DNA of 64,000 bases from Pontivivens nitratireducens (GTDB lineage: Bacteria; Pseudomonadota; Alphaproteobacteria; Rhodobacterales; Rhodobacteraceae), in contig NZ_JACJUQ010000001.1 in assembly GCF_014235845.1 (NCBI RefSeq), forward strand, positions 310,001-374,000, given 5' to 3'. The translations under genes were made by a program, and so were the position numbers. Under the pieces are notes generated by a model. It searched no databases and was not told the DNA's origin. It saw only the letters and a program-made list of their open reading frames with translations. Positions within the stretch are counted from its first letter, which is position 1, and each line of letters opens with the position of its first letter. This document shows positions 53,800 to 58,286 of the stretch, piece after piece.

Positions 53800-55050
53800 A
53801 TGACCGACAAGACTTTTGCCGATTTCGACCTGGCCCAGCCGATCAAGGATGCGCTGGCGCGTGCGAAATTCGAAAAACCCACTGCAATTCAGGCGCAGGC
53901 GATCCAGCCACAGCTGGACGGCCGCGACATTCTGGGTCTGGCCCAGACCGGCACCGGCAAGACGGCGGCCTTCGCTCTGCCGATCCTGCATCACATCCTG
54001 CAAATGCCGGGACGTGCGGCACCGGGCACGGCGCGCGCGCTGATCCTGGCCCCGACGCGTGAGCTGGCGGTGCAGATCCTCGACGAATTCCGCCGGTTCG
54101 CGGGCGGCGCGCGCGTGTCCACCTGCCTCGTTCTGGGCGGCGTGTCGCGCAACGTGCAGATCCGCAATCTGGGCCGGGGCGTGGACGTTCTGGTCGCGAC
54201 GCCGGGCCGGTTGCTCGACCTGGTCGATGACCGCAAGGTGCGTCTGGACGAGGTCCGCTTCGTGGTTCTGGATGAGGCTGACCGGATGCTCGACATGGGC
54301 TTCGTACAGCCGGTGCGCCGCATCGTGTCCATGCTGCACCCCCGCCGCCAATCCGCGATGTTTTCCGCGACGATGCCGTCCGAGGTTTCGGGGCTGGCGG
54401 GCAGCTTCCTCAACAATCCTGTCCGGGTCGAGGTCGCGCCGCAATCCACCGTCGTGACGCGGATCGAGCAGACCGCCGAACTGATGGACGGCACCGCCAA
54501 GCGGTCGCGTCTGGCCCAGTTGATGAACGCGGAGGGAATGGAGCGTGCCATCGTCTTCGCCCGCACCAAGCGCGGGGCGGATCGTGTTGCGCAGAACCTT
54601 GAGAAAGACGGCATCAAGGCCGAGGCGATCCACGGCAACAAGGCGCAGAACGCGCGCCAACGTGCGCTCAACAACTTTCGCCACGGCACGGTCAAGGTGC
54701 TGGTCGCGACTGATATTGCTGCGCGTGGCATCGACGTTCCGGGGATCAGCCATGTCGTGAATTACGACCTGCCGGATGAGCCTGAGAACTACGTACACCG
54801 CATCGGGCGGACGGCGCGCAACGGCGCGGACGGCGTGGCAATCACCCTGTGCGCGCCCGATGAGGTCAAGAAGATGCGCGCGGTCGAGAAGATCACCGGT
54901 GAGCGTCTGCTGCCCGGCGGCACACCCGAGGGGGAGAGCAAGCCGCGCGGCAACCGTCGCGGTGGCGGTGGCGGCAAGCCCGGCGGCGCGCCCAAATCCG
55001 GCCGCCCCAACCGGCGGCGTCGCGGACCCTCGCGCGCCAACGCTGCATGA
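53800..55050 (+). CDS. DEAD-box RNA helicase (RhlE-like)
   Basis: A 416-residue RNA helicase. Motifs: Q-motif FEKPTAIQAQAI, I AQTGTGKT, Ia PTRELAVQI, Ib TPGRLLDL, II VLDEADRMLDMGF, III SATMPSEV, IV IVFARTKRGADRVA, V VATDIAARGIDVPG and VI HRIGRTAR. The last 50 residues are Gly/Arg/Lys-rich, typical of a nucleic-acid tail in RhlE/CsdA-like proteins. A likely terminator follows 23 bases after the stop. Confidence 0.92.
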   Translation: MTDKTFADFDLAQPIKDALARAKFEKPTAIQAQAIQPQLDGRDILGLAQTGTGKTAAFALPILHHILQMPGRAAPGTARALILAPTRELAVQILDEFRRFAGGARVSTCLVLGGVSRNVQIRNLGRGVDVLVATPGRLLDLVDDRKVRLDEVRFVVLDEADRMLDMGFVQPVRRIVSMLHPRRQSAMFSATMPSEVSGLAGSFLNNPVRVEVAPQSTVVTRIEQTAELMDGTAKRSRLAQLMNAEGMERAIVFARTKRGADRVAQNLEKDGIKAEAIHGNKAQNARQRALNNFRHGTVKVLVATDIAARGIDVPGISHVVNYDLPDEPENYVHRIGRTARNGADGVAITLCAPDEVKKMRAVEKITGERLLPGGTPEGESKPRGNRRGGGGGKPGGAPKSGRPNRRRRGPSRANAA

Positions 55051-55073
55051 TCTAGCGGTATATGACATGGAGA

Positions 55074-55100
55074 GGCCGGGACGTGTTCCCGGCCTTTTTT
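55074..55100 (+). terminator. intrinsic terminator of the helicase gene
   Basis: Stem GGCCGGGA paired with TTCCCGGCC (about 8 bp) around a CGTG-type loop, ending TTTTTT. Confidence 0.85.
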
Positions 55101-55130
55101 CGTGCCAAGCGCATCCTGCCGCGTAGGGGC

Positions 55131-55160
55131 TTGCGCCATTTCGGTTTGTGGGGCTACAGT
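55131..55160 (+). promoter_or_regulatory. predicted promoter of the cysS leader
   Basis: TTGCGC (55131-55136), an 18-base spacer and TACAGT (55155-55160). A start site 6-7 bases later would fall at about 55167, on the first base of an ATG, so the transcript may be leaderless at that ATG. It follows the helicase terminator, so cysS needs a promoter near here. Confidence 0.45.
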
Positions 55161-55166
55161 CAGCGC

Positions 55167-55211
55167 ATGACTAACCCAACGCCCCTCATTCGGTGCTGCA
55201 TTATCCGCTGA
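55167..55211 (+). CDS. possible 14-codon leader peptide with adjacent Cys codons
   Basis: ATG to TGA, 14 codons, reading MTNPTPLIRCCIIR. The two TGC codons are at positions 10-11. It begins where the predicted promoter would start transcription and ends 88 bases before cysS. Peptides like this with codons for the amino acid that the next gene handles are used in attenuation; that is inferred here. There is no Shine-Dalgarno, which fits only if the mRNA is leaderless. Confidence 0.4.
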   Translation: MTNPTPLIRCCIIR

Positions 55212-55219
55212 CATATCGT

Positions 55220-55273
55220 CCGCGCGGGGTTTCGTCGTTTTCTATCAGAACCTGACCTGTTAAGCCCGCGCGG
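55220..55273 (+). promoter_or_regulatory. possible leader stem before cysS
   Basis: CCGCGCGGG (55220-55228) can pair with CCCGCGCGG (55265-55273), 9 bp with a 36-base loop. It lies between the peptide stop and the cysS ribosome site (AAGG, 55289-55292). No U tract is present. Each arm is near-palindromic, so alternative local folds are likely. Confidence 0.4.
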
Positions 55274-55299
55274 GGTTCCCCTATCGCCAAGGCCTGAGC

Positions 55300-56664
55300 A
55301 TGACAGATATCGTCCTTCACGACACCAAGACCAAGCAAAAGAAGAAGCTGGAGCCCGTGGTTCCGGGGCAGGTGGGCATGTATGTCTGCGGGCCCACGGT
55401 TTATGACCGGGCGCATATCGGCAATGCCCGGCCTGTGGTGGTGTTCGATACGTTGTACCGCCTGCTGCGCCACGTCTACGGCGCGGACGCCGTGACCTAT
55501 GTGCGCAACTTCACCGACGTGGATGACAAGATCAACGCCCGCGCGGCCGAGAGTGGGCGCAGCATCGGTGACATCACGCAAGAAACGATCGGCTGGTATC
55601 TCGACGATATGGCGGCACTCGGCGCGCTGGAACCCGACCTGGCGCCGCGTGCCACGCAGAGCATCGACGCCATGATCGCCATGATCGCCGAACTGATCGA
55701 GAAGGGGCACGCCTACGCCGCCGAGGGGCATGTGCTGTTCTCGGTCGCGTCGGATCCGCAATATGGCTCGCTCAGCCATCGCAATGTCGATGACATGATT
55801 GCCGGCGCGCGGGTCGAGGTCGCGCCCTACAAGCGGGACGCGATGGACTTCGTGTTGTGGAAACCCTCGGACGAAGGCACCCCCGGTTGGGAGTCCCCGT
55901 GGGGCCGTGGTCGACCGGGTTGGCATATCGAATGCTCCGCCATGTCGCGCGAAGTCTTCGGGGAGCGGTTCGACGTTCACGGCGGCGGCAACGACCTGAT
56001 GTTTCCTCATCACGAGAATGAGGCCGCGCAAAGCCGCTGCGCCCATGGTCACGACGGCATGGCCTCGATCTGGATGCACAATGGCATGTTGCAGGTCGAG
56101 GGCGCGAAGATGTCCAAGTCGTTGGGCAATTTCTTCACGGTCAAGGACTTGCTGGATCAGGGCATACCGGGTGAGGTGATCCGCTTTGTCCTGCTGTCGA
56201 CGCATTACCGCGCCCCGCTGGATTGGACGGAGCGTGGCGTGGGCGAGGCGGAGAAGACGTTGCGCAAATGGCGAACGGCGACGGCGGGCATCGAACCCGC
56301 CGCCACCGTGCCCCCTGCCGTTGTCGCGGCCCTGTCCGACGACCTGAACACGCCGGGGGCGATTGCGGCGTTGCATGGCTTGTCCGAACCCGCGGAATTG
56401 CTGGCGGGGGCCGGACTGCTGGGTCTGCTGGATGCAAGCATGGGGGGCTGGGCCGCCGCGCCGGATGCGGGGGATGCCGCCACTTTAATTGAAAAACTGA
56501 TCGCGGCCCGCGCCGATGCCCGCGCCGTGAAGGATTTCGCACGCTCCGACGCCATCCGTGACGGCTTCGCCGCGGCTGGCGTGATCGTCAAGGACACCGC
56601 TGAGGGCGCGACGTGGGAGCTTTCCCCTACTTTCGATCACACGAAGCTGGAGGATCTGGCATGA
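55300..56664 (+). CDS. cysS: cysteinyl-tRNA synthetase
   Basis: A 454-residue class I synthetase. Zinc ligands are visible as the Cys of [16 protein letters not shown] (which also holds the HIGH-type motif), the Cys of HIECSAMS and the His/Glu of [18 protein letters not shown] is the KMSKS loop. AAGG lies 8 bases before ATG 55300. It is the first gene of an operon with cimA (4-base overlap). A short Cys-codon peptide and stem precede it. Confidence 0.96.
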
Positions 56665-58286
56665 CCCGCGAAAAACTTTCTCTGTTCGACACAACCCTGC
56701 GCGACGGGCAGCAAACGCATGGGGTGGACTTTTCACTGGACGACAAACGGCGGATCGCACGGGCGCTGGATGCGCTTGGTCTGGATTATGTCGAGGGGGG
56801 GTGGCCCGGTGCCAATCCGACCGACAGCGATTTCTTCGATGCGGCTCCCACGCTCGACCAGGCCACGTTTACCGCCTTCGGCATGACCAAGCGCGCTGGC
56901 CGATCCGCCGCCAATGACGAGGTTTTGGCCAGCGTCCTTAATGCCAACACCCCGGCGGTCTGTCTGGTGGGCAAGAGCCACGATTTCCACGTGACCACGG
57001 CGCTGAACATCACGCTGGACGAAAACCGCGAGAATATCCGCGAAAGCTTTGCCCATGTCGTCGCACAAGGCCGAGAGGCCCTGTTCGATGCGGAGCATTT
57101 CTTTGACGGGTACAAGGCGAACCGCGAATATGCGCTGGGTTGCCTGCACGACGCGTTGCAGGCCGGATGCCGCTGGGTGGTGTTGTGCGACACCAATGGC
57201 GGCACGCTGCCCGGCGAAATCGGCCGCATCGTGGGCGAGGTCATCGCCTCGGGTGTGCCGGGTGAGAAGCTGGGCATCCACACGCATAACGATACGGAAA
57301 CCGCTGTGGCAGGCGCGCTGGCTGCCGTCGATGCCGGTGCGCGCCAGATACAGGGCACGCTGAACGGGCTGGGTGAGCGCTGTGGCAATGCCAACCTGAT
57401 CTCATTGATCCCGACCTTGCTGCTGAAAGAACCCTATGCCAGCCAATTCGACATCGGCATTCCGTTAGAAAAGCTGGGCGACCTGACGCAGATCAGCCGA
57501 ATGCTCGACGATATTCTGAACCGCGTGCCGAACCGTCACGCGGCCTATGTCGGGGCGTCGGCCTTCACGCACAAGGCAGGGCTTCACGCCTCAGCTATCC
57601 TCAAGGACCCTACGACATATGAGCACGTCGTGCCCGAAACCGTCGGCAATGCCCGCGTGGTGCCCATGTCCAACCAGGCAGGGCAATCCAATCTGCGGCA
57701 AAGGCTGGAGGAGGCCGGAATCGCCGTGGAAAAGGGCGATGCGCGCCTGTCCGAAATCCTGAACGAAGTGAAGCGGCGCGAGGATCAGGGCTATGCCTAT
57801 GACAGTGCCAAGGGCTCGTTCGAGTTGGTCGCGCGCGGTATCCTCGGCCAGTTGCCCCGGTTCTTCGATGTCGAACGCTACCGCGTGATGGTTGAGAAGA
57901 GGCGCAACGCCAGAGGTGAGAAAATCACCGTCTCGGAGGCGGTCGTTGTGGTCAATATCGGGGGGGAGCGTATAATCTCCGCCGCGGACAGCTTCTTTGC
58001 CGAAAGCGAGGCGGATCAAGGGCCGGTCCACGCGCTTTCCGCTGCGCTGCGACGCGATCTGGGGCGTTATCAGAGCTTCATCAACGATATGAAGCTGGTG
58101 GATTTCAAGGTTCGCATCACGAATGGCGGCACCGAGGCCGTGACCCGTGTCCTGATCGACAGTGAGGACGGGCAGGGGCGGCGCTGGTCGACGGTCGGCG
58201 TGTCGGCAAACATCGTCGATGCCAGTTTTCAGGCGCTCAGCGATGCGGTGACGTGGAAACTGATCCGTGACGGCGCGACAGCATGA
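56661..58286 (+). CDS. cimA: citramalate synthase
   Basis: A 541-residue HMGL/LeuA-type synthase (TIGR00977 type) that condenses pyruvate with acetyl-CoA for isoleucine synthesis. Blocks: [79 protein letters not shown] and [12 protein letters not shown]; the C-terminal LeuA dimer/regulatory domain follows. ATG 56661 overlaps the cysS stop (ATGA). Confidence 0.93.

Follow-up and report, generated by a model that had tools for sequence, protein, structure and literature searches.

The region upstream of cysS in Pontivivens nitratireducens quite probably encodes a leader-peptide switch for the cysS-cimA operon, in which ribosomes would stall at codons for both cysteine and isoleucine. The DNA analyzed, referred to below as the window, is a whole stretch of 64,000 nucleotides. 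A conserved Cys leader before cysS has already been predicted in print, as uORFC-8-2; new here are the mixed block of Cys and Ile codons, its link to cimA with loss of the Ile codons, the members in Rhizobiaceae, and the two covarying partners of a single RNA segment, B.

The cysS upstream region in the window and in its relatives

Direct reading of the window recovered the parts listed in a preliminary description of this sequence, namely a promoter-like pair, an ATG frame with adjacent TGC codons, an inverted pair and then cysS (Table 1). The terminator that it had placed behind the helicase gene is readable in the sequence, but was not listed in a scan of positions 54000–56500. Both strands of the 64 kb were scanned for ATG frames of 8–22 codons with a TA 11–13 nt upstream and at least five Cys or Ile (at least one of each) among the last eight residues, and the uORF before cysS was the single match; frames of that length and spacing numbered 21 on the + strand and 16 on the − strand. 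One strand was also shuffled 30 times by mononucleotides, and none of the 629 frames of the same length and spacing in these shuffles matched. No promoter was listed when 54000–56500 was scanned strictly for the sigma-70 consensus, and the leader RNA of the window was as stable as its shuffles (folding z −0.07). Rfam gave no match to the window at the gathering threshold, neither a T-box nor a known riboswitch, and nothing relevant in four relatives up to an E-value of 1. A match to the Rfam model PYLIS_3 (mttB), of 44.3 bits, was seen upstream of cysS at a Roseovarius locus (L005, 1444–1543, − strand). As the window alone, with no strict promoter and such a folding score, is unconvincing, conservation carries the case.

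About 300 bases upstream of cysS were collected from 133 loci of the window's GTDB family (four of the genus and 129 others). Candidate uORFs, defined as ATG frames of 8–22 codons with Cys near the end and a stop 40–160 nt before cysS, were found at 119 of these loci, two of which (L190 and L199) look spurious; L180, one of the 14 loci without a candidate, has only 89 nt of upstream sequence. The same layout was seen in most of the further Rhodobacteraceae loci compared. Removal of L104, L190, L199, L086 and L088 left an alignment of 114 rows, and the structure tests were carried out on 107 loci, after seven without a located segment B or C had been set aside. The tallies of leaders and cimA exclude L190 and L199 as spurious and use, for L104 and L086, an in-frame or other uORF consistent with the pattern.

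Leaders were also present in a Rhizobiaceae-like family (f151, 40 loci sampled), for example MKTVICIICRKIIR and MKTSFAICGICIIG, with the TA mostly 10–11 nt before the ATG. There, cimA was located 1.4–5.3 kb downstream of cysS at 30 of the 40 loci, and 29 of these 30 had a leader with Cys and Ile; as the choice of the uORF in this family scored Ile, the rejected loci were checked as well. Further alphaproteobacterial families yielded Cys/Ile-rich candidates upstream of cysS at L316 (MNGLLAICAICREITS), L317 (MSNAHTIFICPIICR), and L314 and L315 (MKTAATIWCICCTIIIS), all of which have cimA within 2 kb, and loci outside the Rhodobacterales and Rhizobiales were mostly without a leader candidate. A chance frame beside a chance GC-rich inverted pair, devoid of function, would be in keeping with the flat folding score and the missing consensus promoter of the window, but is refuted by conservation at most of the 133 family loci and in Rhizobiaceae; the empty shuffles also speak against it, and we regard it as hardly credible.

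The TA of TACAGT lies 12 nt before the ATG in the window, which places the predicted start site on the A of the ATG. Such a TA was found 9–15 nt before the ATG in 112 of the 119 family candidates, and exactly 12 or 13 nt before it in 95 of these 112, the family alignment following the pattern CTTG...GCTA...CATG. Shine-Dalgarno sequences showed no excess before the uORF (15 of 114 loci versus 20 in a control window) and were present before cysS in 103 of 114. The spacing of the TA together with the missing Shine-Dalgarno excess fits a leaderless start, in support of what had been proposed for this frame, and the transcript would then begin at the uORF AUG.

Table 1. Features of the cysS upstream region and the downstream genes, in window positions.
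Feature	Position	Strand	Basis or remark
DEAD-box helicase gene	before leader region		gene order in window
Helicase-gene terminator, GGCCGGGA ... TCCCGGCC, then six T	55074–55100		direct reading
Promoter-like pair, TTGCGC (55131–55136), 18 nt, TACAGT (55155–55160)	55131–55160	+	direct reading
Predicted leaderless uORF MTNPTPLIRCCIIR, 14 codons and TGA (ATG ACT AAC CCA ACG CCC CTC ATT CGG TGC TGC ATT ATC CGC TGA)	55167–55211	+	direct reading, family conservation, shuffle scan
uORF Cys codons 10–11, TGC TGC	55194–55199	+	direct reading
uORF Ile codons 8, 12 and 13	55188–55190, 55200–55205	+	direct reading
Segment A (CGC U GAC), last uORF codon and stop	55206–55212	+	5′ arm of hairpin A:B
Segment B, GUCCGCGCGGGG	55218–55229	+	partner A, or (55220–55228) partner C
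Inverted pair, CCGCGCGGG / CCCGCGCGG, 9 bp	55220–55228 / 55265–55273	+	arms lie within B and form C
T/C-rich spacer, TTTCGTCGTTTTC..., 3′ of B	55230–55257	+	in relatives 46% T, 33% C over 16 nt
TGTTAA, −10-like element of possible promoter P2	55258–55263	+	conserved TGnTA
Segment C, CCCGCGCGG, partner of B	55265–55273	+	B:C swap test, tree test
GGGGTTCCCC, end of C with D, possible C:D hairpin	55272–55281	+	weak swap test, ensemble folding
cysS Shine-Dalgarno, AAGG	55289–55292	+	shortly 3′ of possible C:D hairpin
cysS, cysteine--tRNA ligase	55300–56664	+	TIGR00435, 453.5 bits (cutoff 340)
cimA, citramalate synthase (isoleucine pathway)	56658–58286	+	TIGR00977, 591 bits (cutoff 450); overlaps cysS end

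Isoleucine codons and the presence of cimA

Counted back from the stop, codon −3 is Ile in 108 of the 114 aligned leaders, and codon −4 is either Cys (78) or Ile (32), which accounts for 110 of the 114. Cys and Ile were also found at codon −5 (73 and 25) and codon −6 (39 and 30), Ile at codons −7 (78) and −8 (68), and Cys, Arg or Gly at codon −1 (52, 34 and 13, respectively). Residues intermediate between Cys and Ile in the genetic code are almost absent at −4, where at least 27 changes between the two amino acids, each requiring at least two base changes, were counted over 103 rows on a CysS tree of 107 proteins; such changes occurred 20 times each at −5 and −6. Tandem Cys codons are present in 70 of the 114 leaders and absent from 44. 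By these sequence comparisons, the control block is one of Cys and Ile codons, interchangeable as control residues. The preliminary description had made its reading depend on conservation of the Cys codons and the stem in relatives, and both passed, the former with the counts at −4 and −5 and the latter with covariation of the arms of the inverted pair (narrow-arm test, see below). It had missed that the Ile codons are conserved as much as the Cys codons and tied to cimA, and also the Rhizobiaceae members and the published Cys part.

At codon −3, ATT is present in 101 of the 114 leaders, while the cysS ORFs use ATC 1530 times, ATT 341 times and ATA 72 times, which points to a base-level constraint superimposed at −3. 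Such a constraint would be expected if the Ile codons served RNA structure or nascent-chain stalling instead of isoleucine sensing, with shared ancestry behind the link to cimA, and the cimA losses that spared the leader, which amount to three lineages only, leave some room for this explanation. Ile, however, alternates with Cys at −4 and −5 through codons that share at most their last base, ATC and ATT each occur at −5, −6, −7 and −8, and Cys-only leaders retain the uORF without the Ile block, so that we consider a purely structural or stalling role quite unlikely.

The cimA gene is next to cysS, on the same strand, at 125 of the 129 family loci whose downstream sequence exceeds 2.2 kb. The two families together provide 142 leaders that are followed by cimA. 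Ile occurs in the final four codons of 139 of them, the exceptions being L087, L141 and L144, which have Ile further up, and 140 contain two or more Ile. Left out of this tally were L139, with an Ile-bearing leader and no cimA on a contig that ends 649 nt after cysS, and L135 and L191, which end too soon. The last 649 nt of L139, directly after cysS and up to the contig end, consist of a tandem array with a unit of ~170 nt.

Four leaders that passed the filter and had enough downstream sequence lack cimA. Three of them, L088 (MDWICCLCRA), L275 (MKTMICCCC) and L284 (MNTSLANCCRC), have no Ile in the last four codons and have kept Cys. The fourth, L312 (MLIDINCRFIKR), does have Ile in the last four codons; it comes from a 1.1-Mb genome, with a single Cys and 185 nt of upstream sequence, and is probably spurious. 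The association of Ile in the last four codons with cimA gave a Fisher p of 0.00015, in a set of related loci that are not independent. Whole-genome searches revealed no CimA ortholog in G556, G557 (the genome with MNTSLANCCRC) or G108, nor in the other two genomes of genus g106; all three g106 genomes hold only a 33–34% paralog, and their leaders are MDWICCLCRA or MEWICCPC. In genus g425, to which L275 belongs, a CimA ortholog is missing from 39 of 39 genomes, the best match reaching 71 bits and 29% identity, while true CimA orthologs score at least 656 bits. All 30 leaders examined, from 30 of these 39 genomes, are Cys-rich at the end and have no Ile in the last four codons (MKTTICTCC type), with one Ile further up in 25 of them and two in 5. 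To judge from these comparisons, the Ile block was lost along with cimA, and Cys retained, in three lineages, which form the whole basis for the loss of Ile.

The other seven cimA-less loci of the f151 sample have no leader that passed the filter, and neither do three loci of the window's family without adjacent cimA. Loci lacking both cimA and leader belong to genomes without the ortholog, except for G048 (L368 and L370), in which cimA has moved away from cysS and neither gene has a leader. The converse does not hold, as the leader is missing from 12 of the 124 family loci that have cimA, and at several loci of other orders cimA is present and the leader absent.

Pairing partners of segment B and the stretch before cysS

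As RNAalifold returned no structure for the full family alignment (energy 0.0), per-locus folds and tests in which arms were swapped between loci were used. At most loci the uORF end and stop form a hairpin, A:B, with a GCGGG-type segment B located 5–12 nt later and followed by a T/C-rich tract, with a mean z of −2.8 over 107 loci, 102 of which were below −1. Arm-swap tests with narrow arms, which ignore the relatedness of the loci, yielded z −8.4 for A:B and z −8.2 for B:C (0 of 400 permutations in both), z −1.2 for the control A:C (52 of 400), and a weak signal for C:D (z −2.2, 7 of 400). With broad arms no B:C covariation was detected (own −22.41, permuted −22.94). The outer B:C pair alternates between C-G and G-C and is paired in 75 of 114 loci versus 47.6 expected; of 8 independent comparisons made on the tree, 5.2 agree and 0.1 are opposite (median p 0.0625). 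Within the family, segment B is thus seen, in these alignments, to covary both with the uORF end and with the pre-cysS segment, partners that exclude each other. Among 35 Rhizobiaceae the A:B hairpin is nearly invariant, with six pairs that are present in all 35 or in 34 of them, and B and C are complementary but without covariation (z +0.9).

Ensemble folding of the 107 loci, with ribosome masks of our own choosing, predicted pairing of 0.43 for A:B, 0.13 for B:C and 0.57 for C:D in the free RNA, of 0.02, 0.43 and 0.30, respectively, with a ribosome stalled at the Cys/Ile block, and of 0.00, 0.14 and 0.57 with the ribosome at the stop. For the window's own leader, A:B is weak (−6.4 kcal/mol; ensemble pairing 0.03), B:C is formed already in the free RNA (0.79), and only a ribosome sited on the stop shifts the ensemble to C:D (0.66).

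The remark in the preliminary description that there is no U-run was borne out, as the longest T run between the uORF stop and cysS is 2–4 in 108 of 114 loci and 5 in six. An intrinsic terminator was considered and rejected, since strict terminators, by a simple rule, were found at 12 of 114 loci versus 6.2 in shuffles. Direct masking of the cysS Shine-Dalgarno was rejected as well, its predicted unpairing being nearly constant across states (0.42, 0.46 and 0.42). As a strict terminator is absent from most loci and Shine-Dalgarno unpairing is nearly constant, the output would be an effect on either termination or initiation. These results bear on the reading already published, a transcription attenuator in which stalling at Cys codons alone prevents formation of a stem and U-run terminator and Ile is incidental. 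It matches the available text on uORFC-8-2 (PMC8632094), the stop-codon hairpin that precedes the 46% T tract is real and covaries, and some loci combine an A:B of 7–9 bp with a T-rich tail. Nevertheless, the low count of strict terminators and the short T runs argue against it, and an incidental role for Ile fails on the nearly constant Ile at −3, the repeated Cys/Ile swaps and the loss of Ile with cimA, which makes a Cys-only attenuator distinctly improbable.

Before segment C, a TGnTA motif keeps its G, T and A in 106, 88 and 95 of 114 loci, respectively. Together with a G+C-rich discriminator, this motif suggests a putative second, basal promoter (P2) that would give cysS a short 5′ UTR, and the T/C-rich spacer may be a weak U tract, the −35 region of P2, or both. 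TGnTA was found 18–75 nt before cysS at 9 of 15 leader-lacking loci versus 9 of 114 control windows, and L146 retains GTTGCTAAGCCCGCCGCG without a uORF or B. Both observations favor an explanation in which the stretch before cysS serves chiefly as a second promoter (−35 TTTCC-like, −10 TGCTAAG, discriminator GCCCGC), its complementarity to B is secondary, and the transcript with the uORF acts separately, as a small regulator or a decoy. The B:C covariation within the family argues against it, as does the Rhizobiaceae alignment, in which no such promoter is evident, and we hold this explanation to be doubtful, albeit with some chance of being correct. In any case, a second promoter is compatible with a switch governed by Cys and Ile codons, in which it would act as the basal promoter.

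Proposed switch and related leader peptides

From the above comparisons we infer regulation of cysS-cimA by the leader, its start site, translation, stalling, direction of control and output step all being predicted. Transcription would start on or next to the uORF AUG, and the uORF would be translated as a leaderless mRNA. Its last codons, Cys and Ile, would stand for the amino acids of the genes behind, as CysS charges tRNA-Cys and CimA feeds isoleucine synthesis, and the leader probably senses how much of each is available. Under a shortage of charged tRNA-Cys or tRNA-Ile, the ribosome would stall shortly before the stop and cover A, leaving B to pair with C. When both are plentiful, it would reach the stop and leave, or sit there masking the start of B. 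With the ribosome past the block, A:B and/or C:D would form and cysS-cimA would be held down, through weak or rho-dependent termination or through access to the cysS start or its initiation, while P2 may provide a uORF-independent basal expression. The preliminary reading of a predicted leaderless Cys leader before cysS thus gains support from conservation, with its regulatory step still conjectural.

Sensing of a single amino acid by a leader peptide is textbook knowledge, and the thr operon leader of E. coli is said, in work attributed to Lynn in 1987 and cited in PMC7041290, to contain Thr and Ile codons. In both that leader and the one described here a single peptide reads, or would read, two amino acids relevant to the operon; the thr leader, however, is terminator-based and belongs to a biosynthetic operon of other genes, whereas here one codon type corresponds to a tRNA synthetase and the other to a biosynthetic enzyme. 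As in a bivalent leader, the control codons here represent two amino acids, each linked to a gene of the operon by sequence and by co-loss. Like a trp-type attenuator, the element has a leader peptide whose codons include those of the regulated amino acids, and exclusive pairings set by ribosome position emerge from comparative and computed evidence, weakly so in Rhizobiaceae; stalling at either codon type would free B for C. As no intrinsic terminator was found before the first gene at most loci, the element is described as working like an attenuator and not filed as a member of that class.

The uORFC-8-2 motif (PMC8632094, RNA Biol 2021) is, in the available text of that paper, a predicted Cys frame upstream of cysS found "exclusively" in Rhodobacterales, with its tandem Cys "usually" in positions 14 and 15, the Cys codons within the first of two prominent stems, and a 3′ U run as an intrinsic terminator. 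The window agrees with this text in its location upstream of cysS in Rhodobacterales (the best named matches of its CysS are from Rhodobacteraceae) and in an AUG uORF with TGC TGC, and a tandem-Cys uORF and predicted ribosome-mediated control are common to both, as two stems may be. In the same text the motif is restricted to Cys, to Rhodobacterales and to an intrinsic terminator, whereas the element here combines Cys with Ile, the cimA link, a predicted leaderless start, Rhizobiaceae members and mostly no strict terminator. By our numbering, which may not be that of the paper, the tandem Cys are at codons 10–11 in the window and mostly at 8–10 in the family, with one leader at 14. The stems seen here are A:B and B:C, with the tandem Cys of the window outside A:B, and B is followed by a T/C tract with T runs mostly of 3–4. 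"Isoleucine" and "leaderless" are absent from the searchable text of PMC8632094, which was the sole match to the name uORFC-8-2 in the open-access literature searched. The open-access papers searched on cysS or Cys leaders (Rhodobacter, Agrobacterium, Rhizobiales), or on cysS with citramalate synthase, yielded no test of the motif and no isoleucine.

Leaderless polycysteine short ORFs of mycobacteria have been tested by experiment (Canestrari 2020, as cited in the available text of PMC9031893). These ORFs and the Cys leader peptides of PMC1262725 resemble our element, in which both features are predicted, in a leaderless short Cys ORF and attenuation without an obvious terminator, but they have runs of Cys only, upstream of cys biosynthesis operons in Actinobacteria, unlike the Cys and Ile codons before cysS-cimA. 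Rhizobial trpL (rnTrpL), as described in the available text of PMC10117765, is a 14-codon leaderless leader peptide whose translation was shown by ribosome profiling. It resembles the window's uORF in its 14 codons, its alphaproteobacterial origin and its leaderless start, predicted in our case, and differs, according to the same text, in its Trp codons, its target trpE and an attenuator with a known sRNA product.

We think it reasonably likely that a bivalent Cys and Ile leader predates the split between Rhodobacterales and Rhizobiales and reads the charging of tRNA-Cys and tRNA-Ile jointly, with codons that follow the gene content of the operon (loss of cimA erases Ile and Cys stays), a leaderless start, one segment with two exclusive partners and no U-run terminator. 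If so, the scope of uORFC-8-2 would be corrected, to neither Cys alone nor Rhodobacterales alone, and the leader would couple two amino acids, one belonging to a tRNA synthetase and the other to an unrelated biosynthetic enzyme. That exactly the matching codons disappear along with the enzyme gene would be clean evidence, from evolution, of the purpose that control codons serve, and the dual and Cys-only leaders would form a natural series for experiments. Moreover, such a switch would explain why cysS and cimA have stayed together across two alphaproteobacterial orders.
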